This document shows positions 1,516-30,487 of a DNA stretch of 64,000 bases, piece after piece; position 1 is the first letter of the stretch; each line of letters starts with the position of its first letter. The notes under the pieces are model-generated. The model had not been told where the DNA came from. It saw only the letters and a program-made list of their open reading frames with translations, and did not search any database. A program made the position numbers and the translations under genes. Origin of the DNA: Magnetococcales bacterium WMHbinv6 (GTDB lineage Bacteria > Pseudomonadota > Magnetococcia > Magnetococcales > Magnetaquicoccaceae); NCBI GenBank assembly GCA_002753135.1, contig PDZV01000018.1, positions 1 through 64,000 of the forward strand, written 5' to 3'.

Positions 1516-1659
1516 TACGGGTTGTCTCGCGTGTGATGCAGTTTGGAGGTGGGCACCGTCTCTGTTCTGGACGGGTGGCTTTGGGGGGGAGAATAAAGCG
1601 GTGTTGATCTTGTCCGTTTAGCGGGATGAGTGCGTTGGTTCCTCCCAGGGAGAGCAGGG

Positions 1660-2487
1660 ATGGGTACAGAGGTGGTGGAGACTGACAGTGTTGCAAAAGA
1701 GCCCCGTGGTCGTCGTCCGGCAACTTTGACCAAGGGTGGTAAAGAGGGCACTGCAACAGCCGGCATGACCAGACGCGGTTTTTTGCAGAAGAGTGCGGGC
1801 CAGGCGGTTGGGTTGGGAGTGATCGGCCTGTTGCTGTGGATGCACGCCCGATCTTCAGATGCCCAGGCAGCTGTTGCGTTGCGACCGCCCGGCGCTCTTC
1901 CAGAATCGTCGTTTCTGGGCAGCTGTCTTCGCTGTGGCTTGTGTGCGCGGGCGTGCCCCTATGATACCATAAAACTTGCCGATGTCGGGTCGGCAGTGGC
2001 TGCGGGCACTCCCTATTTTTATGCCAGGGAGATTCCCTGCGAGATGTGCCAGGAGATACCGTGTGTCAAGGCCTGCCCATCGGGAGCGCTGGATCCGGGT
2101 TTGCTGGATATCGCCAAGGCGCGCATGGGACTTGCGGTGCTGGCAGATCAAGAAAATTGCTTGGCTTTTCTTGGTCTGCGCTGTGAGGTTTGTTTTCAGG
2201 TCTGCCCGGTCATGCAGAAGGCAATCACCCTGGAGATGCGTCCCAACACGCGCAGTGGTACCCACGCTCTTTTTTTGCCAGTGGTCCATTCCGCGCATTG
2301 TACGGGGTGTGGCAAGTGTGAGCGGGCCTGTGTCCTTGATCAGGCTGCCATCCGGGTTTTTCCCAGAGGGATGGTCAAGGGGGAGTTGGGACATCACTAT
2401 CGCCTGGGCTGGGAAGAAAAAGAGAAAATGGGCGGGCCTCTGGTCCCGGAGCAGATGCACTTTCCTGTTCGGAAACCGGGAGGTTGA
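1660..2487 (+). CDS. napG: NapG, Tat-exported ferredoxin-type quinol dehydrogenase subunit
   Basis: This 275-residue iron-sulfur protein passes electrons from the NapH side of the membrane towards NapA. A twin-arginine signal, TRRGFLQKSAG followed by a hydrophobic stretch, starts near residue 31. Four ferredoxin-type cysteine clusters follow: CLRCGLCARACP near residue 89, CEMCQEIPCVKACP, CEVCFQVCP and CTGCGKCERAC. I chose the ATG at 1660 over the GTG at 1630 because AGGGAG lies just upstream of it; the choice does not affect the Tat motif. The gene sits 144 bases after napA and 3 bases before napH. Confidence 0.95.
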   Translation: MGTEVVETDSVAKEPRGRRPATLTKGGKEGTATAGMTRRGFLQKSAGQAVGLGVIGLLLWMHARSSDAQAAVALRPPGALPESSFLGSCLRCGLCARACPYDTIKLADVGSAVAAGTPYFYAREIPCEMCQEIPCVKACPSGALDPGLLDIAKARMGLAVLADQENCLAFLGLRCEVCFQVCPVMQKAITLEMRPNTRSGTHALFLPVVHSAHCTGCGKCERACVLDQAAIRVFPRGMVKGELGHHYRLGWEEKEKMGGPLVPEQMHFPVRKPGG

Positions 2488-2490
2488 CCA

Positions 2491-3357
2491 TTGAAAAATC
2501 GACCTGGTCCAGAGGCACGGCAGCAAAAGGGGTGGTGGGGAGCCTATCGCTGGTTGGTGCTGCGGCGTGTTTCGCAACTTCTGGTTTTGACTCTGTTTTT
2601 GCTCGGCCCTTGGACGGGTGCGTGGCTGCTGCGGGGTAACCTCTCGTCGAGTGTGCTGCTGGAAAGCGTGCCGATGACCGATCTATTGCTGTTTGCCCAG
2701 TTGCTCGTGGCGCATGGTTTGCCTGCTTTTCAGGCTGTGCTGGGATTTATGGTCGTGTTTGGGCTCTATCTGCTGCTCGGAGGCCGGTTTCCGTGTTCCT
2801 GGGTCTGTCCGGTCAATTTGGTAACCGATGGGGCCTCGTGGATGCGGGCTCGGCTTGGCATCACAGGAGGTTGGCGAGGAAGTCGCTATACGCGCTATGG
2901 TGTGCTGCTCCTGGTTCTTTTGTCGGCTGCCTGGTCAGGTGTTTTGCTGTGGGAGTGGATCAACCCGGTTGCCTTAACCCACCGTGGGTTGGTGTTTGGT
3001 CTCTGGACCGGGCTTCTGGTGGCGGCGGGAATTTTTTTCTTTGACCTGCTGGTCAGCCCACATGGATGGTGCGGGCGACTCTGTCCCACCGGAGCGGCTT
3101 ACAGTCTGCTCTCTTATGGGGCTCTGTTGCGGGTGGATGCAACCCGACGTGAAGCCTGTACCGACTGCATGGACTGCTACCTGGTCTGTCCTGAACCCCA
3201 GGTAATCGATCCGGCTCTCCGGGGTGGCAGCCTGGGACTGGGACCCACCATTGTGGGTGTGCAGTGTACCAACTGCGGGCGATGCATCGATGTCTGCCCG
3301 GAAAATGTTTACGAATTCGCCTTTCATTTACCCAACAAATCGAGGGTGGCGCTATGA
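2491..3357 (+). CDS. napH: NapH, membrane ferredoxin-type quinol dehydrogenase
   Basis: This is a 288-residue inner-membrane protein that oxidises quinol for NapG. Four hydrophobic segments are visible. Between them are the paired motifs CSWVCPVN and CGRLCPTG typical of the NapH/CcoG group, and two [4Fe-4S] motifs (CTDCMDCYLVCP, CTNCGRCIDVCP) lie near the C-terminus. The start is TTG, preceded by GGGAGG at a good distance. Its stop overlaps the napB start by four bases (ATGA), so the genes are translationally coupled. Confidence 0.95.
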   Translation: MKNRPGPEARQQKGWWGAYRWLVLRRVSQLLVLTLFLLGPWTGAWLLRGNLSSSVLLESVPMTDLLLFAQLLVAHGLPAFQAVLGFMVVFGLYLLLGGRFPCSWVCPVNLVTDGASWMRARLGITGGWRGSRYTRYGVLLLVLLSAAWSGVLLWEWINPVALTHRGLVFGLWTGLLVAAGIFFFDLLVSPHGWCGRLCPTGAAYSLLSYGALLRVDATRREACTDCMDCYLVCPEPQVIDPALRGGSLGLGPTIVGVQCTNCGRCIDVCPENVYEFAFHLPNKSRVAL

Positions 3358-3812
3358 ACAAACGGATGTGGCCGAGTATAAGGGCAGTGTGCCTGGTGGT
3401 TTTCCTGGCCTGGATTGGTGTCTCTACGGCCCAGGGGGGGGAAGTGCGGACGTTGCGGGGGTCGGTGCCTTTGGACGGTGCGGATAATGCCCCGGAGCTG
3501 ACCAAATGGATGCCGGACAGCCACCCGTTGCCGAGGGCCTATCTTCAGCAACCGCCACTTGTTCCCCATCAGATCGAATCCTACAAGATCGACTTGCGGC
3601 AAAACAAATGCTTGACCTGTCACAGTTGGGGCAAAGCCAAAGAGACCAGGGCTACCAAAATCAGCTTGACCCATTTCCGCAACCGTTTCGGCTCTGAAAT
3701 GTCGGATATTTCCCCGCAACGTTATTTCTGTACCCAGTGCCATGTGCCGCAAAAGGATGCACCGCCGTTGGTGGAAAACACTTTTCAGCCGGTTGATGCG
3801 GTTGTGCAATAA
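3354..3812 (+). CDS. napB: NapB, dihaem cytochrome c subunit of nitrate reductase
   Basis: A 152-residue periplasmic dihaem cytochrome that hands electrons to NapA. It has an N-terminal signal peptide (MNKRMWPS then a hydrophobic run ending near AQGGE) and two CxxCH haem sites, CLTCH and CTQCH. The conserved lead-in around LRGSVPLDG and PPLVPHQIESYKI is typical of NapB. The start at 3354 overlaps the napH stop. The open frame extends further upstream, but that part would overlap napH and lacks a signal peptide. Confidence 0.95.
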   Translation: MNKRMWPSIRAVCLVVFLAWIGVSTAQGGEVRTLRGSVPLDGADNAPELTKWMPDSHPLPRAYLQQPPLVPHQIESYKIDLRQNKCLTCHSWGKAKETRATKISLTHFRNRFGSEMSDISPQRYFCTQCHVPQKDAPPLVENTFQPVDAVVQ

Positions 3813-3865
3813 GTTGGTACTGGCGTAGTGTGACGGTCTAGCCAATTTAAGAGAAGGAATCTGCC

Positions 3866-4447
3866 ATGAATCTGTTTGCAGACATTGTGGAACTCACGAA
3901 AAGAAAAACCTGGATGGTCCTGTGGGGCTTCTTTGGGCTTGGCGTGGTTTTCTGGGGTGGATTTCAATGGGCTCTGGCCGTAACCAACACTGAGACATTC
4001 TGCATATCCTGTCATGAAATGAAGGATAATGTATTCAAAGAGTATCGCGAAACCATCCATTATTCCAACCGTACCGGGGTGCGGGCAACCTGTCCCGATT
4101 GCCATGTACCACGCGAATGGCAGCATATGGCGATTCGCAAAATTCAGGCAAGCAACGAGTTGTGGCATAAATTGCTTGGCACCGTCGATACACCAGAAAA
4201 GTTTGAAGGGAAACGGCTGGAGTTGGCGCGACATGTCTGGAAGGCGATGAAGGATACCGACTCACGAGAGTGCCGTAACTGTCATAATTTCAATACGATG
4301 GATTTTACTCGTCAAGGCATGCGCGCCTTTGACTTTCACGAGCGGGGCTTTTCACAGAATAAAACCTGCATCGACTGTCATAAAGGAATTGCCCACGCTC
4401 TGCCCCGTGGCATGACCAAAGCTGACGATACCAGCCATATGCAGTGA
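3866..4447 (+). CDS. napC: NapC/NirT-family tetrahaem cytochrome c
   Basis: A 193-residue membrane-anchored tetrahaem cytochrome that oxidises quinol and feeds NapAB. A single N-terminal membrane anchor (residues about 14-35) precedes four CxxCH motifs: CISCH, CPDCH, CRNCH and CIDCH. The length is typical of NapC. The start has GAGAAGGAA upstream. It closes the nap operon. Having both NapC and NapGH gives two possible electron routes into the reductase. Confidence 0.95.
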
Positions 4448-6230: not shown

Positions 6231-6936
6231 CAGAAAAGCGCCTTAGTCGCCAAAAGATCAGAGTACCCCATTGCGCGGCAGGACGCAACTTGCAGCCAAA
6301 CCAACGCAACTCACAGCGCTATTGGCAGCAAAACAGAGCTACGACTTCTATTACCATGATAATGATTGATACCCACAAGTTTGCAATTGTGCGGAGAGCG
6401 TGTAAAATTGGTTGAATAGCTGTTATTATCTGTGATACAGTATTATCAGTTTTTCATATGCGATTGCATCGAATTTGTTTTTTGTAGTAATTCCCAGCAC
6501 CTAACATAACTGGGAATCTGTGCAAAACAGACACGTTCCCAATAAACAACGCAGCAGACATCGGCAAGTTACGAATAAGATTACATTTTTTTAACTCGCC
6601 CATGATGAAACACATCCCGATACCGCTTGGGAAAATATTATTATCAATAGCTGCGCAATTCATGAAAATAACTTCCTAAACGCCACATTACAATACATCA
6701 ACCAATTGAACAAAATATGATTTTCTCTCGAACTTGCATGCAAAAATAAACATATTCTGTGTGATAACACGAGACGAAAAAATAAGGTAGATCTGCTCCT
6801 TAAGAAAAATAAGGTCAAGGCAGAAGGTTGGCGCACTCTGACTTGCCCGGTGGTTGCGCAGAACCTGTTTGCGCTCCCGGCTACATACCATGGAAATACC
6901 AGCTTGATCGCTGGTAGTTACTTAAGGGGGTCAGTC
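6231..6936. other. AT-rich intergenic region
   Basis: About 700 bases of AT-rich sequence between divergent genes. It must carry promoters for both flanks, but I cannot assign boxes with confidence. The minus strand holds a 69-codon frame from 6663 with AGGAAG upstream of its ATG (product begins MNCAAIDNNIFPSG). It has no recognisable protein character, so I do not call it a gene. Confidence 0.5.
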
Positions 6937-7227
6937 ATGATGAATAGCAAAGTTAGCAATCCGGCGGTAGAACAGATCGCACGAATCATTTGTCGGGATG
7001 ATGTCATTCGCAGCATCGAGGAGACCGTTGAGAGCATCGACGACGCCTTCACCGAAGAGTCCATCCACCAGGCCTACCCGGAACTGATCAAATCATCCGG
7101 AAAAAAACATGTCCAGGATGTGATCGTTGCCGAAATCGTCGATCGCTCCTGGGAGGATTATGTGGAGACCGCGATGAGCATCATGAATGTGTTTCGCGTG
7201 CAAATTCCACCCTCTGCAACCGCATGA
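6937..7227 (+). CDS. Hypothetical protein, 96 residues, acidic
   Basis: The ATG at 6937 follows AAGGGGGTCAGTC, a good ribosome binding site. The product starts MMNSKVSNPAVEQIARIICRDD and is rich in Glu/Asp and helical segments (SIEETVESIDDAFTEESIHQAYPEL, then VIVAEIVDRSWEDYVETAMSIM). It is predicted to be soluble and mostly helical. I do not recognise the family. It stands alone between two long intergenic regions. The ThDP-enzyme operon 426 bases downstream is on the same strand, but nothing shows that they are linked. Confidence 0.65.
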   Translation: MMNSKVSNPAVEQIARIICRDDVIRSIEETVESIDDAFTEESIHQAYPELIKSSGKKHVQDVIVAEIVDRSWEDYVETAMSIMNVFRVQIPPSATA

Positions 7228-7652: not shown

Positions 7653-9524
7653 ATGATCAATGCAGAATCAACACTCGATATGAGCAGTCAACCCCTTTCA
7701 GGAGAGATCCACTCTCCCGCCACGCTGGCGGACATGGTGCTGACCTATCTGGAGCAGATTGGGGTGGACACCATTTTCGGCGTTCCCGGTGGCGCGATTG
7801 AACCGTTGTTCAATGCGCTTGCCCGTTTTGCCCGACAGAACAGAAAACCAAGAGTCGTGGTTGCCCGCCATGAGAGTGGTGCTGCCTTTATGGCCGATGG
7901 CTATACCCGCGAAACGGGACGATTGGGCGTCTGCTGCGCCACTTCCGGGCCGGGCACCACCAACCTGATTACCGGCGTTGCCTCTGCCTATGAGGACCGG
8001 ATCCCGATGTTGGTGATTACCGCGCAACCGGCAGCGGCAAAATTTGGCAGAAACGCTTTGCAAGAGTCCACCTGCCCCACGGTCAATATTTTGAGCGTGT
8101 TTGAAGGTTGCACCCGTTATAACGCCATGGTATCCCACCCGGAGCAATTGGAAAGAAAATTGCTGACCGCCATCACCACCGCTTTACGTCATCCACAAGG
8201 ACCTGTCCATTTGAGTATTCCCATGGATGTTTTCGGCCACTCGCTGGATGGTGTAACGCACCTCTCCTGCAGTTTGTCCGATATGTTGCAGGAACCGGAA
8301 ACCGTCGATCACAAGTCGATCGATAAATTGTGCGAAAAAATAGCGCTCGCACGCAAAGTTGTCCTCTATCTGGACAAGGGCGCGGCACCAGCCATTGAGC
8401 AAATTCTTGCCTTTGCTGAGCTGACCAAAACCCCCATCGTCACCACCCCGGCGGGCAAATTTTTGCTCAGTGCCTATCACCCGCTTTACCATGGCGTCTT
8501 TGGCTTTGCCGGACACGCCAGTGCCCATCAGATTGTTCTGGACAAGGAAATGGACCTGATTCTGGCTGTCGGCAGCAACTTTGGCGAAATGTCCACAGGT
8601 GGCTGGGATGAGGCTTTACTGACAAAAAATATCGTCCATATCGATGCCAACATGGAAAATTTTTCGCATTCACCCATGGCCAAACTGCGCTTGCATGGTT
8701 TTTTGCCGGCCACATTCAGCGAACTGGTGAAACGGGCAACCAAAATTATGCGCGGCGGTGCCCTGTTTCCAGGCAAAGCCTCTGCCACCCTCAAAAACAG
8801 AAACAACGCCAACAAAAATATTGTCTCCCTGCACCATCCGACCAATATTTTGATGGAGGACAAACAGTCGCATGTGATGGATGGCAGCAGCATCAAACCG
8901 CAGCAACTGATCTATCAGTTGGCCCATCTCTTTCCGGAAAACACCCGCTTTTTGGCCGATGCCGGCAACTCCTGGGCCTGGATGACCCACTATCTGCATT
9001 TGCGCAACCATAACAATTACCGCATCGCCTTTGGCTATGGTGCGATGGCATGGGGCATTGGAGCCGCGATCGGCACGGCCATGGGCAACCGCTATGCCCC
9101 CGTGGTCTGTGTGACCGGTGACGGCAGCTTTTTGATGAGCGGTCAAGAGTTGACCGTGGCCGTCAGCGAACGACTTGCCGTCATCTTTGTCATTCTCAAC
9201 GACAGCTCTCTGGGCATGGTCAAACATGGCCAACGACTGGGCGGTGGCGAAGCGATCGGCTATGAACTGCCGGAAATTGACTTTACCCTGATCGCCAAAG
9301 CCATGGGTGCGGAAGGATTTGTCATCCGATCCTTGCAGGATTTTCGCGAACTGGACATTGAGCGCATGTGCCGCCGCATGGGACCAACCGTCCTGGATGT
9401 GCGCATCGATCCAGAGGCGGTGCCCCCGATTGGCAATCGCCTGAAAGGGTTGGGCCGCTTGAACGAAAGCAGAACGGTCATCCACAACCAGAAGGTGGAA
9501 CGGCAAAACAGAGTCAATCCATGA
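7653..9524 (+). CDS. Acetolactate-synthase-like ThDP-dependent enzyme
   Basis: A 623-residue thiamine-diphosphate enzyme of the acetolactate synthase/pyruvate oxidase group. The order is an N-terminal pyrimidine domain (GVPGGAIEPLFNAL, then VVARHESGAAFMADGYTR with the catalytic Glu in HESGA, then SGPGTTNL), a central Rossmann-like domain and a C-terminal PP domain with GDGSFLMSGQELTVAV and the Asn of ILNDSSLGMV. The substrate cannot be read from sequence. An extra insertion of roughly 40 residues (about 370-410) separates the central and C-terminal domains. The next two genes are citrate-synthase-like and overlapping, so the product is probably used in a carbon-carbon bond reaction other than branched-chain amino acid synthesis. 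I took ATG 7653 (GGGA upstream) over GTG 7629. Confidence 0.9.
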   Translation: MINAESTLDMSSQPLSGEIHSPATLADMVLTYLEQIGVDTIFGVPGGAIEPLFNALARFARQNRKPRVVVARHESGAAFMADGYTRETGRLGVCCATSGPGTTNLITGVASAYEDRIPMLVITAQPAAAKFGRNALQESTCPTVNILSVFEGCTRYNAMVSHPEQLERKLLTAITTALRHPQGPVHLSIPMDVFGHSLDGVTHLSCSLSDMLQEPETVDHKSIDKLCEKIALARKVVLYLDKGAAPAIEQILAFAELTKTPIVTTPAGKFLLSAYHPLYHGVFGFAGHASAHQIVLDKEMDLILAVGSNFGEMSTGGWDEALLTKNIVHIDANMENFSHSPMAKLRLHGFLPATFSELVKRATKIMRGGALFPGKASATLKNRNNANKNIVSLHHPTNILMEDKQSHVMDGSSIKPQQLIYQLAHLFPENTRFLADAGNSWAWMTHYLHLRNHNNYRIAFGYGAMAWGIGAAIGTAMGNRYAPVVCVTGDGSFLMSGQELTVAVSERLAVIFVILNDSSLGMVKHGQRLGGGEAIGYELPEIDFTLIAKAMGAEGFVIRSLQDFRELDIERMCRRMGPTVLDVRIDPEAVPPIGNRLKGLGRLNESRTVIHNQKVERQNRVNP

Positions 9525-10360
9525 AGAAAAAACATTTCCAGGAAAACAGGCGCTCCGGCGAATTCAGCAAACGTATTGTCAGCACCATTTGGCAAGAGGT
9601 GCCCAGCGCAGAGAATGACTATCTGACCCAGGAAGCCTATTGCCACGGCTACAACCTGCTGGAGTTGATGGACAAACGCTCCTTTGAAGATGTGTTGCTG
9701 TTGTTGCTGCAAGGAGAATTGCCCTCGCCGGAACGCAAAGAGTTGCTCCGCAACTTGATGATTGGCCTCATCAATCCCGGCCCGCGCCATCCGGCCACCC
9801 GTGCTGCCATCATCGCCGGGGTTGGCAAGAGCGATCCCAAACATATTTTGCCCATTGCGCTGAGCCTGATGGGTGGTGATCACTTGGGGGCAGGTGAGGT
9901 AGCCAAGAGCATGGAATTTTTACGCTATCAGCTGAAAAAAGATCCCCGGCAGGTTGCGCAGGCGTTGCTGCAGGAGAGCCAGAGAGCAGAACAGGGAGAA
10001 GATTGGCTGCCTGCTGCCGGTTTCGGCAGCTGTTTTGGCGGCAGAGACCCAATGGCGCAAGCCATCGCCAGCAGATTGCTGGCACTGCCCGGAGCGGGCA
10101 AAGCGCTGCATTGGGGAGAGCTCTTCGCCGAAGAGTTGGCCACCCAACAGATGGGCTGGCGTATTCCCGGTGTTGCCGCCGCCGCTTTTCTCGACCTGAA
10201 CATTTCCGGTCTGCAATCCTGGATTGGAGCTGGACTTTTTCAACTGCTCTCTGCACCAGGACTTCTGGCCCATGGTCTGGAGTTTCATATGCAGCCGCTG
10301 ACGGCCTATCCGTTTCCGAGTGACGATCAATATGTGATTGAATGCGATGCCAAACCATAA
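9521..10360 (+). CDS. Citrate-synthase-like protein A (short, one active-site His altered)
   Basis: A 279-residue protein of the citrate synthase/citryl-CoA lyase fold, about two thirds of normal citrate synthase length. The first catalytic-His region is kept (SLMGGDHLGAGEVAKSMEF, compare HGGAN of the family). The normal GFGHR motif reads GFGSCFGGRDPMAQ, so Ser replaces the second His. The C-terminal FLDLNISG and SAPGLLAHGLE parallel the VDFYSG and RTPGWIAH segments of the family. It starts by ATGA overlap with the ThDP enzyme and overlaps the next gene. The reaction is not known. It may form a hetero-oligomer with protein B. Confidence 0.75.
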   Translation: MKKKHFQENRRSGEFSKRIVSTIWQEVPSAENDYLTQEAYCHGYNLLELMDKRSFEDVLLLLLQGELPSPERKELLRNLMIGLINPGPRHPATRAAIIAGVGKSDPKHILPIALSLMGGDHLGAGEVAKSMEFLRYQLKKDPRQVAQALLQESQRAEQGEDWLPAAGFGSCFGGRDPMAQAIASRLLALPGAGKALHWGELFAEELATQQMGWRIPGVAAAAFLDLNISGLQSWIGAGLFQLLSAPGLLAHGLEFHMQPLTAYPFPSDDQYVIECDAKP

Positions 10361-11171
10361 CAATACCTCATTCTGGGATCACCATCGTGCCATCATTCGC
10401 AGCCGCAAAGGGGGCTGGGTGGTCAATCAAGGGGTCTATAACCACAACTATTCGATGATGGATGATCTCTTGGGGCGGGTCTCTTTCGTGCGAGTCATGG
10501 TTTTGAATGCCACCGGTCGTCTGCCGGGCAAACGGCTGGGGGCCTGGTTTGATGCCTCGTTGCTCTGCACCAGTTGGCCGGATGCCCGCATCTGGTGTAA
10601 CCAGATCGGGGCGTTGGCAGGAACGCTGCGCACCTCACCGACAGCGGCCACCATGGCCGGCACGCTGGCCGCCGATTCCAGAGCCTATGGGGCCTTGACC
10701 GTGGTGGAGAGCATGCAGTTTCTGCTGCGCGCCCGGCAACAACTCTCTGACGGCATGCCGATCAGCGACATCATCGCGGCAGAGTACCGGCGCAAGGTTG
10801 GCCGTGGCTATATCACCGGCTATTCCCGTCCGATTGCCTCCGGGGATATTCGCATCCCTGCCCTGGAACGGCTGCGCAAACGGCTGGGTTTTGCCAAAAA
10901 AGCCCATCTGCAACTGGCTTTCCGCATTGGCAAAGAGCTGGCAAAACAGAATGGCGAACAAATCAACACCGCCGCCTATTTGGCCGCCTTTCTCGCCGAT
11001 CAGGCGTTCACTCCGGAAGAGGTGAAACGCATTTACGCCACCATGGTCTCCAGCGGGGTGCTGGCCTGTTATGCCGATACGAGAGACCGCCCGGCAGAGG
11101 CTTTTCTGCCACTGCGCTGCAGCGACGTCGAATACAAGGTCAAAGCAGCGCGTCCGGTTCCTGACCCTTGA
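10347..11171 (+). CDS. Citrate-synthase-like protein B (strongly diverged)
   Basis: A 274-residue second citrate-synthase-like protein. Its start overlaps the end of protein A by 14 bases (an upstream TTG at 10338 is also possible). Landmarks such as GGWVVNQGVYNHNYSMMDDLLG at the N-terminus, YGALTVVESMQFLLRA and TGYSRPIASGDIRIPALERL align by position with the HGGAN and GFGHR regions of citrate synthases. The catalytic His positions appear to be Tyr and Arg. It is therefore either catalytically inactive on its own or uses different chemistry. Pairing with protein A suggests an obligate heteromer. Family membership is my reading of weak motifs and should be tested by profile or structure. Confidence 0.65.
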   Translation: MPNHNNTSFWDHHRAIIRSRKGGWVVNQGVYNHNYSMMDDLLGRVSFVRVMVLNATGRLPGKRLGAWFDASLLCTSWPDARIWCNQIGALAGTLRTSPTAATMAGTLAADSRAYGALTVVESMQFLLRARQQLSDGMPISDIIAAEYRRKVGRGYITGYSRPIASGDIRIPALERLRKRLGFAKKAHLQLAFRIGKELAKQNGEQINTAAYLAAFLADQAFTPEEVKRIYATMVSSGVLACYADTRDRPAEAFLPLRCSDVEYKVKAARPVPDP

Positions 11172-11390: not shown

Positions 11391-14300
11391 ATGAGCCTTA
11401 CTGGTAGTTATCAGACCGAGGATATTCTCTACAGCAGCGAGCAGACCATCGTTTACCGGGGGAAAGACAAGCAGGGCAAACCGGTTATCCTCAAGGTACT
11501 CAACAATTCCCATCCAGACCCGGAACAACTGGCCCGGGTCAGGCTGGAGTATGCCTTGATCCGCCGTTTGCAAATCGGTTCCGAGCAGGAAAGCTCTGTC
11601 ATTCAAGCCTACGACCTGGTCAAACACCACAACAGCTTGATGATTGTCCTCGAGGATACCGGGGGCGATTCTTTGAGCCGTCATGCCCATGCGCAGCGAA
11701 TGGCCATGGATGCGTTTTTGCCCCTGGCCATCCAGATCAGCCACATTGTCGAAACCATTCACAAACAACTGGTCATCCATAAAGATATCAACCCATCCAA
11801 TATCATCTGGAACCGGCACAAAGGGTTGGTGCGCCTGATCGACTTCGGCATCTCCACCACCCTGACCAGAGCCCACATGGAGATATGGAACCAACAAGTT
11901 CTGGAAGGAACCCCCGCCTACCTTGCCCCGGAACAGACCGGGCGCATGAATCGCCCGGTCGATTTTCGTACCGATCTCTATTCACTCGGTGCCACCTTTT
12001 TTTATCTGTTGACCGGTGAGGCCCCCTTTAAAAAAGGCAACATTCTCGAACTGATTCATTGCCACCTGGCCAAACAGGCACAATTTTCGCCGGAACAGCA
12101 GAAAAACATCCCGGAAATGGTCGCGGCAATCGTCTTGAAGCTGTTGGCCAAAGAGGCCGAATCCCGCTATCAAACAGCCACAGGGCTGAAAAAAGATCTG
12201 CAAACCTGCCTGGAACATTGGCAACAGAACAGCTCTGTCCCTCTCTTTCCGATGGGGCTTGACGATGTTGCCGCACAGCTTGTTTTTTCCCAACGTCTGT
12301 TTGGTCGTGACCAGGAGTTGCAGATTCTGCGCGGGGCCTTTGATCGATCCCGGCGGGGAGAAAGCGGCTTTGTTTTTGTCACAGGCAATGCGGGCGTCGG
12401 CAAAAGCGCCCTGATCAACGAAACCGGCAGCCACGTCTTGTTGCATGGCGGTTTTTTTGTCTCCGGTAAATTCAATCAGTCGGAAGATAATACGCCCTAC
12501 GGTGCGATTATCTATGCCTTCAGGAGCCTGATGCGTCAACTGCTGACCGGCAACGATGAACAGCTCACCCTGTGGAAGGAGAAGCTCAGACCGCTCCTGG
12601 AGTCCCGAAGCGCCATTATCTGCCGGGCAATTCCTGAGCTGGAAATCATCATCGGCATACAAAATCACTCTTATGAGCTGTCACCAAACCAGTCACGGGA
12701 TCAATTCTATCTGGCTTTTCTCGATCTGGTCAAAACCATCAGCACCCAAGAGACACCATTGACCATCTTCATGGATGATCTGCAATGGTCCGACAACCAG
12801 TCTCTGCAGCTGCTGGAGCGGCTGGTGGAGGCACCAGACTTGATGCATTTTCTGCTGATTTGCGCCTGCCGTGACGAAGATGCTAAAAAAATGGCCCCGG
12901 TGCAGGCTTTCCGGCAATCGATCAGCAGAACGATGGCCTTCAGTCACACCATCCATCTGACCCCGTTGCAACCGGAAGATGTACGTCACCTCATCGCCGA
13001 TTCCACCCGTTATGATGCCCAGGAGGTGGAGGAACTCAGCGCAGTCTGCATCGAAAAGACAAACGGCAATCCCTTTTTTTTGAAACAGTTTTTGCTCTCT
13101 CTCTACAATGATGGCCTGCTTCATTTGGAAAACGGCGTCTGGCGTTGGCAACTGAGTGCCATTCGGCAACAAACGGTTACCGATAACGTGGTCAACCTGA
13201 TGACCGATAAAATCCGCAGCCAAAGTGCCCTCAATCAGGAATTGCTCAAAGTGGCCGCCTGTATCGGCCATACCTTTGATATCGAAACCTTGGCCAACGT
13301 TCTCGGCTGGAGCAAACAAGAGACAGCCGCCGCCTGTCAGGATATTTTGGAGGCCGGATTTATTTTACCCTTTGAAGGAGAACATAAACTGACAGCCTAT
13401 CTGGACAGCCCGAAGGTCAGTTATCAGTTTATCCATGATCGTGTCTATCAATCGGCCTATGCCCTGCTCAACAAAAGGCAAAAAACCAAAATTCATTACA
13501 AGATCGGCAAATTGTTGCAGCAGAATATTCCCTCCGCTGCCCATTCCATCCATTTGCTTCGGGCAACCAATCACCTGAATCTCAGTCAGTCGTTGATGCC
13601 TTCCCAGGAAAAATATCAACTGGCTGAGTTGAATCTGCGCGCCGGTCGTCAGGCCATGCTTTCGGCGGCACATCAGACCGCCTATCACTATTTTCAGTCT
13701 GGATTGTCCATTTTTGACCAGCAGGGATGGTCAACACACTACGATCTGGTGTTGCAACTGCACAATGCCTCTGCCCATGTGGCCTACGTCTCTGGCTTTT
13801 ATCATGACATGCCACGACTGGTACAAGCGGTGGAAGCGCATGCCAGATCCTTGCTCGACACGGTCTATATTCGGCGGGAAACACTCATCGCGCATACCTC
13901 GGCCATGCAGTTTTTTGCCGCACTGGAGAATGGACTCTCCCTGTTGCGCCTGTTGGAAGAAAAAATTCCAGACAGCGAACCCAGTGAAGAGGAGGTCGAC
14001 AACGCCTGGCAGCGATTGGATGGGCTCTTGGGTACAATTTCGGCAGAATCGTTGCTGAATCTGCCAGCCATTGGTGATTTTCAATCCGAATCGGTTCTGG
14101 ATGTCATCTCCAACATCGTGCCGGTTGCTGCCATCATCGGATCCCGATGGATGCCCTATCTGCTTATTGCAGGCATGCAGAAAATCATTCGCTCCGGCCA
14201 CTCCCCCTCCTCGGTTTTGATTGTCTGTGACTTTGCTGGCATGTGTCTGTGTGGTATCCGGGATGATATGGAGGCCGGCTACCAATTTGGCCAAGTGGCC

Positions 14301-16574
14301 ATGCGGTTGTTGGAAAAAAGCCAGAACGAGCAGCACAGAATGCGCCTCTTTTTCATGTACTCCAGCAACATCCGCCACTGGCATGAACATTATCTGAACA
14401 TTCTGTTGCCATCCTACAAAGATGGCATCAAAAATGGCTTGGATGTAGGGGATATTGAAAGTGTTTCCTATATTATTTACATCTATGTTGCACAATGCTT
14501 TTTCTTTGGTGAAACCCTCTCTGTCGCCGAAAAGCAGATTCAAGAATATCGCAACCAGTTGATCACCATCAAAAGTCTTTATTTGCTCGATTTTGTCGAC
14601 ATCATTCACCAGGCTGTGCTGAATTTGATGGGAAATTCCCTGACCCCGCATCTGCTTCTTGGTGAAAAATATAATGAAAAGGAGAAATTAGCAAAACTGA
14701 TTCAAACAGGTGGTACCACCATTCTCTGTAACGTTTATATCGCTTTATTGATGCTGCGCTATTTGTTCAGACAGTTTGACGATTGTGCAGCGTTGCTCAC
14801 CCAGGCAAATCATAATCTGATTGCACTGAAAGGAAGCGCACAGGTTCCCATTTTTTTATTTTTTGAAGCACTCTATTATCTGGCCGTATACCCGGAGGCC
14901 CCACCCGAACAGCAGACAAAGTGGCTGGAGAAGGTGGAAAACAATCACGCCCGCTTGCACAAATGGGCACAACACGGCCCGATGAACCTGGAACAGATGC
15001 TCCGACTGCTGGAGGCAGAACGGTTTCGCGTGCTGAAAAAAAATGCGCAAGCACAGGATGCCTACAACAAAGCGATTGCGTTGAGCAGGCAGCATGAATT
15101 CATCCTCTTTGAAGCGCTGGCGTTTGAACTGGCCGGTTATTTTTACCAGCAGCAGGGGATCAATCATCTGACCCGATACCATCTTGGCGAGGCGCGTTAT
15201 GCCTATGCCCGCTGGGGAGCCACGGCCAAAGTATTGAGTTTCGACTGGAGCTATCCAGGCTTTTTTCTCGATTCCAAGGGAAGTTATGCCAGCTCCAACC
15301 GGGAGATGCAACCATTCTCTCCCTGCCCCCGTTCCACAACCACCAAATCGATCACCGAAACCCTGGATCTGCCCAGCATTATTATGGCCTCGCAAGCCAT
15401 CTCGCGGGAGATTGATCTCAACAAACTGGTGCATCAGTTGTTGCTGATCGTGATGGAATATGCCGGTGCGCAGAGAAGTTGCCTGATTTCGGTTGAAAAC
15501 GGCCAATTGACCATGCTGGCACAGGTGACCGAGCGCGACCAACTGTATCAAACCTCTGAACAGTTCGACAATAAAAAGCGGGCTGATTTTTCGGAAGAAA
15601 TTGTCCGTTTTGCCATCCGTTCCAAAGAGTTTCTCGCCCTGGGTGATGTCACCAACGATTATCATTTTGCCCACACAGAGTATGTCCTGCGCAACAGATC
15701 AAAATCGATTCTCTGTGTCCCACTGGTCTACAACGGACAGGTCAACCGGGTGATCTATCTGGAAAACAACCTTGCAACACATGCGTTTACCCATTTTCAG
15801 GTTGAATCGGTCCGCATCCTGGGAGCGCAAGCAGCCATCTCCCTGACCAATGCCATGGTGATCAACGAACTGAAAAGCACCGAGCAAAAATTGTTGTTCG
15901 CCCAACAACAATCCCGTCATATTTCGCGCCATCAGCAAGTGATCCTGGAAAACGAACAAAAGCGCATTTCGCAAGAGATTCATGACGAATTGGGCAGCCT
16001 GCTGACCCGCGTCCGCATCGAAATTGAATTGTTGCTCGACGACATCGAACAAAATGCTGCTGTTGACGCCAAAGAGAGCTTGTCGGACATTTTGAACCAT
16101 ATCAATCAGGCCATGTTGACGACCAGACGCATCGCCTTTGCACTCCGTCCCAAAACACTCGACCAATGTGGCCTGCTTCCTGCTCTGGAATGGCAGGCGG
16201 CCAAGTATAAACATCTCTTTGCCACGCGCATCGATCCGAACTCAAAAAATATTCGCTTCGACGATGAACGGGAAATTGCCCTTTTCCGTATCGGGCAGGA
16301 GGCAATCACCAATATCGTGCGCCATGCCTCGGCTTCACAGGTGACATTGTTTTTGGATGCAGTCGATGACACGATTATTTTCAGCATAAGCGATGACGGT
16401 CGTGGTATCGATTTACAAAAAAGCTTTAAAGTCACTATGGGCATCCAAGGTATGCGAGAACGAGCCAAACAGTTGGACGGACAGGTACAAATCTGCAAGA
16501 ATAGCTCTGGCGGCACCCGGGTTGAGGTGACCATTCCCCGAAAAATTGACGAAAAATTTGAGGTGTTATCGTGA
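11391..16574 (+). CDS. Giant hybrid signalling protein: Ser/Thr kinase, ATPase, GAF, histidine kinase
   Basis: A single 1727-residue chain. Residues 1-270 are a Ser/Thr protein kinase (HKDINPSNIIW near 130, DFG near 150, GTPAYLAPEQTGR). Residues about 310-600 are an AAA-type predicted ATPase with Walker A GNAGVGKSAL near 332 and FMDDLQWSD as Walker B. A long helical, repeat-like middle part spans about 650-1300, and a GAF domain spans about 1330-1490. A NarX-type dimerisation domain has the phospho-acceptor His in QEIHDELGSLL near 1530. A HATPase domain lies at the end (GQEAITNIVRHA, SDDGRGID, MGIQGMRERA). This multikinase architecture is known from cyanobacteria and other bacteria. The GTG of the response regulator overlaps its stop, so they form a two-component pair. 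Confidence 0.93.
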   Translation: MSLTGSYQTEDILYSSEQTIVYRGKDKQGKPVILKVLNNSHPDPEQLARVRLEYALIRRLQIGSEQESSVIQAYDLVKHHNSLMIVLEDTGGDSLSRHAHAQRMAMDAFLPLAIQISHIVETIHKQLVIHKDINPSNIIWNRHKGLVRLIDFGISTTLTRAHMEIWNQQVLEGTPAYLAPEQTGRMNRPVDFRTDLYSLGATFFYLLTGEAPFKKGNILELIHCHLAKQAQFSPEQQKNIPEMVAAIVLKLLAKEAESRYQTATGLKKDLQTCLEHWQQNSSVPLFPMGLDDVAAQLVFSQRLFGRDQELQILRGAFDRSRRGESGFVFVTGNAGVGKSALINETGSHVLLHGGFFVSGKFNQSEDNTPYGAIIYAFRSLMRQLLTGNDEQLTLWKEKLRPLLESRSAIICRAIPELEIIIGIQNHSYELSPNQSRDQFYLAFLDLVKTISTQETPLTIFMDDLQWSDNQSLQLLERLVEAPDLMHFLLICACRDEDAKKMAPVQAFRQSISRTMAFSHTIHLTPLQPEDVRHLIADSTRYDAQEVEELSAVCIEKTNGNPFFLKQFLLSLYNDGLLHLENGVWRWQLSAIRQQTVTDNVVNLMTDKIRSQSALNQELLKVAACIGHTFDIETLANVLGWSKQETAAACQDILEAGFILPFEGEHKLTAYLDSPKVSYQFIHDRVYQSAYALLNKRQKTKIHYKIGKLLQQNIPSAAHSIHLLRATNHLNLSQSLMPSQEKYQLAELNLRAGRQAMLSAAHQTAYHYFQSGLSIFDQQGWSTHYDLVLQLHNASAHVAYVSGFYHDMPRLVQAVEAHARSLLDTVYIRRETLIAHTSAMQFFAALENGLSLLRLLEEKIPDSEPSEEEVDNAWQRLDGLLGTISAESLLNLPAIGDFQSESVLDVISNIVPVAAIIGSRWMPYLLIAGMQKIIRSGHSPSSVLIVCDFAGMCLCGIRDDMEAGYQFGQVAMRLLEKSQNEQHRMRLFFMYSSNIRHWHEHYLNILLPSYKDGIKNGLDVGDIESVSYIIYIYVAQCFFFGETLSVAEKQIQEYRNQLITIKSLYLLDFVDIIHQAVLNLMGNSLTPHLLLGEKYNEKEKLAKLIQTGGTTILCNVYIALLMLRYLFRQFDDCAALLTQANHNLIALKGSAQVPIFLFFEALYYLAVYPEAPPEQQTKWLEKVENNHARLHKWAQHGPMNLEQMLRLLEAERFRVLKKNAQAQDAYNKAIALSRQHEFILFEALAFELAGYFYQQQGINHLTRYHLGEARYAYARWGATAKVLSFDWSYPGFFLDSKGSYASSNREMQPFSPCPRSTTTKSITETLDLPSIIMASQAISREIDLNKLVHQLLLIVMEYAGAQRSCLISVENGQLTMLAQVTERDQLYQTSEQFDNKKRADFSEEIVRFAIRSKEFLALGDVTNDYHFAHTEYVLRNRSKSILCVPLVYNGQVNRVIYLENNLATHAFTHFQVESVRILGAQAAISLTNAMVINELKSTEQKLLFAQQQSRHISRHQQVILENEQKRISQEIHDELGSLLTRVRIEIELLLDDIEQNAAVDAKESLSDILNHINQAMLTTRRIAFALRPKTLDQCGLLPALEWQAAKYKHLFATRIDPNSKNIRFDDEREIALFRIGQEAITNIVRHASASQVTLFLDAVDDTIIFSISDDGRGIDLQKSFKVTMGIQGMRERAKQLDGQVQICKNSSGGTRVEVTIPRKIDEKFEVLS

Positions 16575-17200
16575 TAAGGGTATTTCTTATTGATGATCAC
16601 GAAGTTTTACGTGAAGGTCTCAAAAAAATTCTCAGCAGACAGCACGATATTTTGGTGGTCGGCGAAGCCGGCAGCGGGCGGGAGGCAGTACGTGCCCTGC
16701 GTTCACTGGAAGTGGATGTGATTATTCTCGACATCACCTTGCCGGATTCGGACGGTCTGGAGGTTCTCAACCGCATTCTGGGCTTGAAACAGGATGTGTC
16801 GGTATTGGTCTACACCATGCACGAGGAGATTCCTCTGGCCATTCCCTTCCTGAAAGCGGGTGCCAAAGGCTTTTTATCGAAAGTAGCCCCATCAAAAACA
16901 TTAATTGAAGGTATTCGCCAGGTTTATAAAAAGAAAAAATTTCTCACACCGCAAGTCGGTGAGGCTTTGCTGCAAAGCTGGCAGCAAGGAGAAACACCCC
17001 TCACGCACAGCGCCCTTTCCAATCGGGAGTTTACCGTTTTTCGCCTGCTTGCCTCGGGAAAAATGGTCACAGAGATTGCCACGGAACTGGGCGTAACCAA
17101 ATCCACGGTTTCGACGCACAGAAGGAATATTCTGGAAAAAATGGGCTTAAAATCAACCAGCTCACTGATGCGCTATGCCATCGAACACAAGCTCATCTAG
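16571..17200 (+). CDS. NarL/FixJ-type response regulator
   Basis: A 209-residue regulator. The receiver domain begins IRVFLIDDHEVLREGL with acidic residues at 8-9, the phospho-acceptor Asp in VIILDITLPDSDG near residue 53, and Lys in GAKGFLSK near 102. A LuxR-type helix-turn-helix covers about 145-205 (SNREFTVFRLLASGKMVTEI, then TKSTVSTHRRNILEKM). It starts at a GTG overlapping the histidine kinase stop (GTGA). It is the likely output of the giant kinase. Target genes are unknown; the adjacent ThDP/citrate-synthase-like operon and the acyl-ACP genes are obvious candidates. Its stop codon lies in the end of a MITE-like element. Confidence 0.93.
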   Translation: MIRVFLIDDHEVLREGLKKILSRQHDILVVGEAGSGREAVRALRSLEVDVIILDITLPDSDGLEVLNRILGLKQDVSVLVYTMHEEIPLAIPFLKAGAKGFLSKVAPSKTLIEGIRQVYKKKKFLTPQVGEALLQSWQQGETPLTHSALSNREFTVFRLLASGKMVTEIATELGVTKSTVSTHRRNILEKMGLKSTSSLMRYAIEHKLI

Positions 17201-17599: not shown

Positions 17600-19393
17600 T
17601 CAACCGCGCAGGGGTGAAATAATCGCCGTGAACGTGTCAGGATCCGCGGGAATCGTCTGTTCTTCCAGGGGAAAAAAATATCGGTGCGTTGCCGGAGAGT
17701 CGGGCGCAAGATCCAGGGTAAAACCCTGCTTGCCGTAAAACGTTTGCACCTGGCTGTTTTTGGCAGTGGCATAATATTCGCCCACCACACGCCGCACCCC
17801 CTGCCGCTTGGCCAGATGCAGAGCATGGCGTAACAACACCTCCTCTACGCCACGGCCCAAAGCCCGACAGGAGAGCAGAAAGGTATCCAGATAAGCCTCC
17901 TGCTGCTGATAACGCAAGATGCAGACGCCGATAATGCCCGAATCGCCAAAACGGTCAAGCAGGCGTACATGCAACACATCCGCCGCCGACCCGGCAACAA
18001 ATTGGCTGATATCCGCCTCGCTGTAGCGTCGGGTGGTCAGGTTGAACTGGTTGGTCTTTTGCGTCAACTGGGCAACCCGTGCCATGGTGGACTGGTCGGT
18101 AAAGGCAATTTCCACCTGCATTGCCAGCGATTTGAAATAGGAATGCAGATCGGTGGTGGCCTGCATCAACCGTTTACGTTCCGCTTCGGCCGTATACATG
18201 CTGCCCCGGGTGCGATCTTCCTGGGAGAGGGTCAGCGTATCAAACAATCCGCAGGCAAGCAGGTTGAAGCGGGCTTGAAAAAGCTGCTCCTTCGCCTGCT
18301 GCAGCACCGTCACCACCGGCAACTCCCGGCGCACCATCTCCACCTCAAAGGCAGAGTCATCGACAAAAACCATGCTGTCCAGGCCGATATTCAGTTCCAC
18401 GGCCAGTTCACGAATGTTGGCCACCTTGTCCTGCCAATTGATCCGCCAGGCGGCAAAATGCTGCCGCTTGAGCAGTGATCCCGGATGATTTTGCAAAACA
18501 TCCCAAACATCATCCTCATTATTTTTGCTGCAGAGGGCGAGAATGACACCCCGGCTGTAGAGTTCAAGAATTTGTTGCTGAAACTCCCGATAGGCAGAAC
18601 CCGGAGAGGTGGTGCCCAGTTTGATACCAGCCATGCCATCTTCACCGATAATGCCCCCCCACAAGGTATTATCGCAATCCAAGACCAAACATTTTTTGTT
18701 TTTACCCAGCGAGGCCCGCACAAATTTGCTCACCTCACGCGCCATTTCCGCGTAAGCCTCCAGGGTAAAGGGGGCGCGATTCATATGCCAGAAACGGTGA
18801 TCGAAAAAATGGCGGCTGCCAACACGTGCCAGGCAGTGGCCCATGTCAACAAAAAAGCTGTTGGGAACCGCCCGCACCACATCGCAAATTGCCGTGTTGA
18901 GCCTGTGCAGCATCCGGCTTTGCCCGGCATGGCTTTGGCTGTCAAAGATACCAAGCGCAGGATAGGGAGAGGGTAAAAAACCGTGCCAGAGAATCATGGC
19001 CGCCGTTTTGCTGCGAATGCCCTGCACGATGGTGTGGCACAGATCCAACAAGCGATTGATTTCGTTCTCTACCGCCTGCTCGGAGAGAGAGGCAAAATTG
19101 CGCGCCAAATCCCACGAGAGCCCTTCCAGATAGAGAACAATCAAGATGGCGTGGGTCTGTTGATCATAAACCGTCGGGGCACCGGCAACCGCCTCTTGCA
19201 AAACGGTATCATAATCGCCCAGCGTCACCTGCGCTTGGCAATCCAGACTCAGGGCCTCATAACGCAGATAGGTGGCCAATGGCTCCAGCATGATATTGCG
19301 TAAAATGGCCAGACGCAGTTGCGTTGGCATCTCTTTTTCGTGCGCTTGCACATGCCTGGAAATTGCAGAAAAGGAAAGAGATGACGATGACAT
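17600..19393 (-). CDS. FkbH-like HAD-family protein with N-terminal SGNH-like and C-terminal GNAT-like parts
   Basis: A 597-residue FkbH-family protein. The N-terminal third resembles the SGNH-like region of this family (FFVDMGHCLARVG near the middle). A HAD domain starts with CLVLDCDNTLWGGIIGEDG (Asp-x-Asp-x-Thr near residue 240), followed by ALCSKNNEDDVW and VFVDDSAFEVEMVR. The last 150 residues resemble an acetyltransferase fold (RLLDRFGDSGIIGVCILRY, LDTFLLSCRALGRGVEEVLL). Characterised relatives convert 1,3-bisphosphoglycerate to glyceryl-S-ACP for polyketide or tetronate assembly; other FkbH-like proteins lie in polysaccharide loci. With the neighbouring ACP and the MaoC::SDR fusion it suggests a small ACP-bound acyl pathway. 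Confidence 0.9.
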   Translation of the reverse strand: MSSSSLSFSAISRHVQAHEKEMPTQLRLAILRNIMLEPLATYLRYEALSLDCQAQVTLGDYDTVLQEAVAGAPTVYDQQTHAILIVLYLEGLSWDLARNFASLSEQAVENEINRLLDLCHTIVQGIRSKTAAMILWHGFLPSPYPALGIFDSQSHAGQSRMLHRLNTAICDVVRAVPNSFFVDMGHCLARVGSRHFFDHRFWHMNRAPFTLEAYAEMAREVSKFVRASLGKNKKCLVLDCDNTLWGGIIGEDGMAGIKLGTTSPGSAYREFQQQILELYSRGVILALCSKNNEDDVWDVLQNHPGSLLKRQHFAAWRINWQDKVANIRELAVELNIGLDSMVFVDDSAFEVEMVRRELPVVTVLQQAKEQLFQARFNLLACGLFDTLTLSQEDRTRGSMYTAEAERKRLMQATTDLHSYFKSLAMQVEIAFTDQSTMARVAQLTQKTNQFNLTTRRYSEADISQFVAGSAADVLHVRLLDRFGDSGIIGVCILRYQQQEAYLDTFLLSCRALGRGVEEVLLRHALHLAKRQGVRRVVGEYYATAKNSQVQTFYGKQGFTLDLAPDSPATHRYFFPLEEQTIPADPDTFTAIISPLRG

Positions 19394-19401
19394 ACCCCCA
19401 C

Positions 19402-20592
19402 CTAAGCCATGACAATACCACCACAGACACGGAAATTTTGTCCGGTGATATAAAGCGCCCCCGGGCCAAACAAAAAGGTGACCAGACCGCTGATGTCATC
19501 CGGCACACCAAGGCGACGTAACGGCGTCTGCATTTTGGTAACCATTTTCGCTTTTTCCGGGAAATCGGCGATCATGGCTGTCTGGGTCATGCCCGGCGAG
19601 ACTGTGTTGGCCCGTATCCCTTTGGGGCCATAATCCGCAGCAATAGATTTGGTGAAGGCCGACAAGGCACTTTTGGCGGCAACATAATGGGCAAGATGCG
19701 GCGCAGGCACATTATCGGTCAAGACACTGCCGATAGTGACCAGCATGCCGCCCCCTTCGGCCTCCAGCACAGGCACCATACTGCCAAACAGGTTAAAAGC
19801 CCCTTTGAGTTGCACATCGAGGTGGCGTTGCATCTGCTCCCAGCGCAACTCGGCCAACGGTGTCGGTATCAGGGCAGCAGAAGCATTATGTACGGCACCG
19901 GCCAAGGCACCCCACTCTGCCTGCGCTGCCTTGACCATGGCCGCGACGGCCTCCGGATCACACACATCTGCCTGCCAGACCATGGCCTTGCCACCTGACC
20001 GGTTGATTTCGTCGGCCACTGCCTGGGCATCGGCAACGGTGGTGGCACAATTGAGCAACACCGGATGGCCCGACAGGGCAAGCGCCTGGGCAATGGCAGC
20101 CCCGATTCCACGACTGGCACCGGTAACAAGCACCGCTTTCCGTTCTTTATCCATCCTCTCTTTTCCTTGGCTGACCGGCTTTAACACCTTGACCTTGCCC
20201 TCTCCATCCACGACCCGTTCCCCCCCTTCTCCCAGGACAACGGTTTTCAGGGTCAGCACGCGCTGCGAGAGGCTTTTATGAACCACCTCCGCCTGCACCC
20301 GAATCGTTTCCCCCAACCGTACCGGGCGCAAGAAACGGAGATTCTGTTCGTACCAGAGAGCCCCTTTGCCAGGAAGTTTGGTACCGATCAACGTGGAAAA
20401 AAAGGAGGCGCTTAACATGCCATGCACCACCCTTTTGCCAAAACCGACGGTATTGGCAAAGGTGTCATCCATGTGCAACGGGTTGTCATCTCCGGTCAAA
20501 TCGGCAAAAGTCTGCACATCAGCCGCTGTAATGCAGTGTTCCAGTTCTGCCCGATCACCGACCGAAATCTGGTCAAAATTGTCACTCATCAT
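19402..20592 (-). CDS. MaoC-like hydratase fused to SDR 3-oxoacyl-ACP reductase-like domain
   Basis: A 396-residue two-domain protein. Residues about 5-140 are a MaoC/hot-dog (R)-hydratase (FADLTGDDNPLHMDDTFA, VVHGMLSASFFSTLIGTKLPG). After a short charged linker (KERMDKERKA), residues about 152-396 are a short-chain dehydrogenase with VLVTGASRGIGAAIAQA for NAD(P) binding, the NAS segment, Ser in TIGSV, the YVAAK active-site motif and GIRANTVSPGMT. Joining a dehydratase to a FabG-like reductase would allow coupled processing of a beta-hydroxyacyl or beta-ketoacyl thioester. It is the first gene of the three-gene minus-strand operon with FkbH and ACP (8-base gap). Confidence 0.92.
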   Translation of the reverse strand: MMSDNFDQISVGDRAELEHCITAADVQTFADLTGDDNPLHMDDTFANTVGFGKRVVHGMLSASFFSTLIGTKLPGKGALWYEQNLRFLRPVRLGETIRVQAEVVHKSLSQRVLTLKTVVLGEGGERVVDGEGKVKVLKPVSQGKERMDKERKAVLVTGASRGIGAAIAQALALSGHPVLLNCATTVADAQAVADEINRSGGKAMVWQADVCDPEAVAAMVKAAQAEWGALAGAVHNASAALIPTPLAELRWEQMQRHLDVQLKGAFNLFGSMVPVLEAEGGGMLVTIGSVLTDNVPAPHLAHYVAAKSALSAFTKSIAADYGPKGIRANTVSPGMTQTAMIADFPEKAKMVTKMQTPLRRLGVPDDISGLVTFLFGPGALYITGQNFRVCGGIVMA

Positions 20593-30356: not shown

Positions 30357-30487
30357 CCAGATAAGATTCTCACCGACCACCCGGTGACACAGCAAACCCG
30401 GCCTACCGCGACGGCGGGAAAAGGGGATACCTCACCCCCTGGCCGGGCTCATTTCATGAGGGGCAACGTATTTTGAGGTGTGCGGAG
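30357..30487 (+). terminator. GC-rich hairpins after the toxin-antitoxin pair
   Basis: About 130 bases with strong pairing potential, in which a CCCGGCC run near 30400 is complementary to GGCCGGG near 30443. It probably separates the TA operon from the next gene. There is no U-tract. Confidence 0.35.

Follow-up and report, generated by a model that had tools for sequence, protein, structure and literature searches.

Gene organization and the question raised by the locus

The locus described here raises the question of what a thiamine diphosphate (ThDP)-dependent enzyme, encoded in one overlapping operon with two small proteins of the citrate synthase superfamily, would make, and for what use. 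It lies in a stretch of 64,000 nucleotides (hereafter the window) at the start of contig PDZV01000018.1 of Magnetococcales bacterium WMHbinv6 (GCA_002753135.1), a 3.84-Mb draft genome whose closest relatives among the scanned species were Candidatus Magnetaquicoccus and other Magnetococcales. The three overlapping genes, here termed T, A, and B, had been correctly placed and sized in a first-pass annotation:

7653..9524, + strand: T, ThDP-dependent enzyme of the acetohydroxyacid synthase / CybE-like type, 623 amino acids (aa), ATG start, Pfam TPP N, M, and C domains
9521..10360, + strand: A, citryl-coenzyme A (CoA)-lyase-fold protein, 279 aa
10347..11171, + strand: B, citryl-CoA-lyase-fold protein, 274 aa

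We consider the chances evenly balanced that the trio, supplemented in some cases by tailoring enzymes, for example a short-chain dehydrogenase (SDR), synthesises a diffusible small molecule sensed by its producers. The genes T and A overlap by ATGA, and A and B by 14 bp. The trio is not a chance arrangement, because orthologues 54-73% identical to T, A, and B occur in conserved order in three further Magnetococcales genomes; within this order, all three genes are confined to the identical 4/48 genomes. The earlier remark that no described pathway with this exact gene set was known to its author agrees with the open literature searched, in which no description of the set was found (most subscription journals lay outside that search). 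No riboswitch or known RNA was detected near the trio in the window or in four relatives. An anti-phage role was also considered and rejected, as PADLOC returned no match for T, A, or B, and its kinase matches were generic kinase-domain matches only.

T resembles CybE-type carboligases

The three TPP-enzyme domains detected by Pfam (N, M, and C) place T in the ThDP superfamily, and conservation over 44 relatives marked the catalytic Glu74 and the cofactor motif GDG (489-491)...N516. T shares its domain order and cofactor motif with the large subunit of acetolactate synthase, but its best NCBIfam match, TIGR00118, reached 316.3 bits against a cut-off of 538.35, and no regulatory subunit is encoded nearby. 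A house-keeping acetolactate synthase was ruled out by this sub-cut-off score, the presence of other ThDP paralogues in the host (just 26-32% identical to T), and the patchy distribution of the gene.

Among solved structures, T was best matched by BbmA (289 bits) and CsmA (277 bits), with the best bacterial acetolactate synthase at 209. Acetohydroxyacid synthases carry a bulky tryptophan where T has Gly526, which aligns with the mutated residue of 8xod, BbmA position 484 (BbmA G484F). This glycine is kept in at least 97% of the 44 T relatives and in 13/13 members of a second group, as in a CybE-type pocket. CsmA and 'BpmA' (by context the BbmA/CsmA pair) were reported in 2025 (PMC12395478) to be homologues of CybE, an enzyme of furanolide biosynthesis that couples two alpha-keto acids to give an alpha-hydroxy-beta-keto acid. 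Because BbmA and CsmA are CybE homologues, and T keeps the catalytic Glu, the cofactor motif, and the pocket Gly, T is inferred to form an alpha-hydroxy-beta-keto acid and to accommodate a large second substrate. T differs from the CybE-type enzymes and ScyA, however, in scoring far under the NCBIfam cut-offs for ScyA and ScyA-related proteins and in its association with two lyase-fold proteins; a CybF-like furanolide synthase was not seen either.

A and B adopt a citryl-CoA lyase fold with altered catalytic positions

AlphaFold single-chain models of A and B, built on family alignments of 73 and 80 sequences, had predicted local distance difference test (pLDDT) scores of 93 and 91, respectively, and the best Foldseek match of both was 6hxp, a citryl-CoA lyase from Hydrogenobacter thermophilus. 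Structure prediction, proposed earlier as a check for a fold other than that of citrate synthase, thus put both proteins inside it, and according to the models A and B are the citryl-CoA-lyase form of this fold, resembling 6hxp and the C-terminal module of ATP-citrate lyase in fold and length. Together with the TPP domains of T, these models bear out the earlier view of a ThDP enzyme with two citrate-synthase-superfamily partners; the description of the partners as short needs correction, since they are of normal size for the citryl-CoA lyase type (6hxp, 256-268 aa) and are no cut-down citrate synthases. Profile matches to citryl-CoA lyase were obtained for A (E 7e-29) and B (E 5e-16). Both proteins also matched NCBIfam citryl-CoA lyase models of the PRK06224 group, though at scores well under the cut-offs (A, E 4e-16, 58.7 vs 261; B, E 2e-11, 43.5 vs 193), and against Pfam Citrate_synt (PF00285) A scored 23.8 bits vs a gathering cut-off of 27 and B gave no match, while one B-family member (L103) cleared that cut-off at 38.2 bits. 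The window genome encodes a separate normal citrate synthase (454.8 bits).

Catalytic positions were read by alignment to two genuine-looking citryl-CoA lyases (L017 and L016) over 73 A and 80 B sequences. By what is established for citrate synthase, the three positions in question are the classical triad His-His-Asp, of which A keeps one residue and B none. In A, the first position is His121, kept in 42/73 relatives (Tyr in 18); the GFGH histidine is replaced by Ser170 (Ser in 46/73), as anticipated by the GFGS reading of the first-pass annotation; and the catalytic Asp position holds Pro216 (Thr in 41). In B, these positions are Ala113 (variable), Arg161 (80/80), and Ala209 (Asn in 48), so that both His positions are indeed altered, as had been noted.

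The same annotation called A and B degenerate copies, a term at odds with their strong conservation and their own sets of invariant residues. B has 14 tabulated positions identical in 80/80 relatives (Asp79, Arg81, Trp83, Cys84, Asn85, Tyr114, Arg161, Pro162, Arg169, His187, Asn207, Asp218, Asp260, and Arg269), forming the motifs PDxRxWCN, YG, and G-x-x-RP plus R169, H187, N207, D218, D260, and R269, despite a mean family identity of about 54%; the invariant set of A includes Glu26, Asn32, Gly87, and Arg89. These patterns argue that the changes in A and B are a re-specialisation and not decay. Truncated or decaying citrate synthases were likewise rejected, as the lengths fit citryl-CoA lyase and the motifs are invariant across phyla. 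A composite site completed by the C-terminal arginine of B was considered too: Arg269 is invariant in B and has no equivalent in A, but its correspondence to the neighbouring-chain Arg of ATP-citrate lyase was not demonstrable, and such a site is not claimed.

A and B were adjacent on one strand at 72/79 loci and overlapped at 68/72 of those, and their pairwise distances were correlated at 0.69, compared with 0.20-0.26 for either with T. A and B therefore behave as an obligate pair, which fits the heteromer proposed earlier, and a putative active site shared between them is plausible. The pair departs from citryl-CoA lyase in that the His/His/Asp residues are gone wholly in B and at two of three positions in A, in always consisting of two different chains, and in not lying beside citryl-CoA synthetase-like genes, which adjoin the lyase gene of L017.

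Distribution across bacterial phyla

A protein-only genome scan with A as the query found no relatives, whereas a B profile run against 84,980 species returned 164, of which the best 80 of 164 loci were retained. Neighbourhoods were counted over 81 loci and A-B pairing over 79; many of the loci are draft metagenome assemblies, some on short contigs. The profile search for the gene set that had been suggested earlier thus found it widely, beside receptor and sensor genes that had been overlooked. Carriers were found in the Gammaproteobacteria (including Cellvibrio, Teredinibacter, Neptuniibacter, and Colwellia), the Betaproteobacteria (Gallionellaceae and Thiobacillus), the Desulfobacterota (Desulfuromonadales, and Desulfobulbaceae with a cable bacterium among them), and one Nitrospirota genome. 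B is rare, occurring in 9/398 genomes of a broad phylum sample, nearest relatives included.

A T-type gene was present within the stretch at about 60 loci. Where no T lay nearby (16 loci), the gene was found at another place in the same genome in 12 cases (43-52% identity), and the other four are draft genomes; a more distant T (34-38%) was found in 15/15 genomes of the Desulfobulbaceae (Desulfobacterota/Nitrospirota) type. As separate observations, locus L038 has two T genes (51% and 47%), and B occurs at two distinct loci, L044 and L079, of a single Polarisedimenticolaceae genome, so a second version of the system may be present in some genomes.

Receptor and sensor genes travel with the trio

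Clustering covered every reading frame in the surroundings of the 80 loci, and families were named by Pfam, with distance classes (<3 kb, 3-5.5 kb, and >5.5 kb) inside the same loci serving as an internal background. The commonest neighbour besides A, B, and T was a TonB-dependent receptor, present at 74/81 loci. The seven loci without one comprise four Magnetococcales (window included), one contig beginning inside the operon, and two with another candidate receptor-like frame. Histidine kinases, some with a YfiR/DUF4154 periplasmic domain, were found near A-B at 50 loci and GGDEF/EAL proteins, often with receiver and PAS domains, at 37, both counts being approximate as the two were split by a motif rule. 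In addition, ABC_sub_bind periplasmic proteins occurred at 37 loci and a second binding-protein family at 11. These genes are concentrated close to the pair: 78 TonB receptor genes lay at <3 kb (461 kb searched) vs 0 at >5.5 kb (273 kb), and 29 GGDEF/EAL genes vs 0, respectively, while binding-protein genes numbered 16 at <3 kb and 21 at 3-5.5 kb, with a single one farther away. Within the closer T group, 20/47 T genes adjoin a GGDEF/EAL gene.

Divergent lineages carry the same association. At L151, whose best A/B matches within the set are 30-33% identical, the order is T, A, B, two TonB-dependent receptors, a substrate-binding protein, and a histidine kinase-REC-Hpt-GGDEF protein; at L152 and L153, it is receptor, A, B, T, substrate-binding protein, and histidine kinase. 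At L154, T stands apart from A-B, with a substrate-binding protein and histidine kinase on one side and a REC-PAS-GGDEF-EAL protein on the other. Synthase genes are thus linked to receptor and sensor genes across lineages, both in the 81 loci and in the divergent ones. No recurrent inner-membrane transporter was present among the clustered neighbour families.

Alternatively, the product could be a secreted chelator or public-good metabolite, such as an alpha-hydroxy-carboxylate metallophore, which the receptor reclaims while the kinases regulate the operon by the recovered compound. TonB receptors chiefly carry siderophores, haem, and cobalamin, the receptors of these loci score highest there (all sub-cut-off), and hydroxy acids bind metals. 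Yet no recurrent exporter, periplasm-to-cytoplasm ABC permease/ATPase, or ferric reductase was found among the neighbour families, and the output is often a GGDEF/EAL protein and not uptake genes, so that we regard this explanation as unlikely.

As the most constant neighbour, the receptor would also suit a catabolic operon, bringing in a substrate to be degraded by T, A, and B and sensed by the kinases; operons that combine receptor, sensor, and enzyme genes are common in nutrient use, and ThDP and lyase-fold enzymes can work in the cleaving direction. This is very unlikely in our judgement, given that no inner-membrane transporter accompanies the set, that T can be far from the receptor yet beside sensors (L154), and that the distribution is patchy over differing metabolisms, from iron oxidisers to cable bacteria.

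Genes beside the trio in the window

In the window, the trio is followed by these genes:

11391..16574, + strand: Ser/Thr kinase - AAA_16 - GAF - HisKA_3/HATPase protein (Pfam), 1727 aa, 220 nt past B; proposed sensor
16571..17200, + strand: LuxR/NarL-type response regulator (Pfam Response_reg and GerE), overlapping the kinase gene
17600..19393, - strand: FkbH-like HAD/acyltransferase, which has homologues close to the trio of L012 and of L014; possible tailoring enzyme, membership uncertain
19402..20592, - strand: MaoC - short-chain dehydrogenase fusion, found 3' of the regulator in L014; possible reductase/hydratase tailoring enzyme, membership uncertain

The kinase and LuxR-type regulator also follow the trio in L012 and L014. 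In L013 (G041), a kinase homologue lies on the opposite strand upstream of the trio (331-2292), comprising a broken N-terminal half (a frame of 653 aa, with the match continuing past one TAA stop). Because kinase homologues occur in 18/48 Magnetococcales genomes, mostly trio-free, they belong to a broader family, a kinase specific to the trio is not supported, and the link is one of position only. Upstream of T, a 125-aa frame (6850-7227) without a Pfam match has a relative in the matching place in L012 and is a possible regulator or accessory of the trio.

Tailoring-type genes recur across the loci (SDR at 21, sulfotransferase at 6, and O-methyltransferase at 4), raising the alternative that a small cluster built around the trio, and merely regulated by the sensors, makes a specialised metabolite with no signalling role. 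The FkbH-like and MaoC-SDR genes of the window and an AMP-binding adenylation enzyme in L013 would suit such a cluster, as would the sulfotransferase, methyltransferase, and SDR genes elsewhere. The receptor-sensor-GGDEF set is, however, more constant than any tailoring gene, and the carrier proteins and exporters that mark classic clusters are not recurrent, making this alternative improbable to our minds.

Proposed signalling role

Our proposal of a module for a sensed, diffusible molecule starts from the observed folds, residues, gene pairing, co-occurrence, and neighbourhoods. Judging from its family, T would couple an alpha-keto acid to a second alpha-keto acid or to some other carbonyl acceptor, giving an alpha-hydroxy-beta-keto acid, as in the reactions of acetohydroxyacid synthase and CybE. 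A and B, as a putative obligate heteromer of the citryl-CoA-lyase fold, would probably act on this product with a CoA thioester, because both CoA thioesters and alpha-hydroxy acids are ligands of that fold; the re-built site may combine His121 of A with the invariant Arg161, Tyr114, Arg169, and His187 of B. The product would then exit the cell and, in most lineages, be brought back to the periplasm by the TonB-dependent receptor, where a substrate-binding protein or YfiR domain would relay the signal through a histidine kinase to cyclic-di-GMP proteins of the GGDEF/EAL type. In the window and its nearest relatives, sensing may instead fall to the Ser/Thr-kinase-GAF-histidine-kinase protein and the LuxR-type regulator.

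Three features suggest a signal: the synthetic genes are accompanied by those for the receptor, the binding protein, the kinase, and the cyclic-di-GMP enzymes; no recurring permease/ATPase comes with the binding proteins, in a LuxP/LuxQ-like arrangement; and the type of sensor varies by lineage while the presence of a sensor persists. LuxP/LuxQ combines a periplasmic binding protein with a sensor kinase, and the trio loci are alike in this respect. Genes for small-molecule enzymes beside a histidine kinase are also a feature of CqsA/CqsS and of LuxS with LuxP/LuxQ, but the trio has other enzymes, a TonB receptor in the set, and an output that includes cyclic-di-GMP enzymes. The CqsA/CqsS pair has been described previously (PMC3285556).

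Several observations weigh against a signalling module. The evolution of T follows that of A and B less closely than those two follow each other, and His121 of A is just 58% conserved, such that the heteromer may be no classical acyl-CoA enzyme. There is no TonB receptor beside the trio in Magnetococcales, including the window, and the window kinase family is not confined to trio carriers. At about 20/81 loci, some of them on short contigs, the stretch covered contains neither a kinase nor a GGDEF protein, and gene neighbourhood is no proof that the receptor senses the trio product. The catalytic steps, export, product identity, and signal role are all inferred.

Going further, we tentatively suggest, with more doubt than confidence, a new class of bacterial signal, combining a ThDP carboligase, a lyase-fold heteromer with a composite re-invented site, TonB re-uptake, a readout through a binding protein, histidine kinase, and cyclic-di-GMP, and gene transfer across phyla. 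If the signalling proposal is correct, sediment, iron-oxidising-mat, cable, shipworm-symbiont, and magnetotactic bacteria would share a widespread, undescribed form of chemical communication or self-sensing, and two new enzymes would be involved, namely a paired citryl-CoA-lyase fold without the classical residues and the ThDP enzyme feeding it. Under the rival explanations too, the trio would be a conserved biosynthetic module. Cultivable carriers exist, and the system is therefore directly testable.

Other features of the loci and the window

At four gammaproteobacterial trio loci (L042, L046, L052, and L084), genes resembling arsenite methyltransferase and ArsR (clusters c10 and c11) lie upstream at a distance of a few kb, probably reflecting shared local synteny. 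Elsewhere in the window, frames resembling a periplasmic nitrate reductase operon (large subunit, ferredoxin-like NapG/NapH, and NapB-/NapC-like cytochromes) were recognised at 58-4447 from their translations alone. Moreover, an int-alpA RNA (30396-30462, 60.9 bits) lies just upstream of a frame at 30473-31558 and may mark an integrated mobile element.

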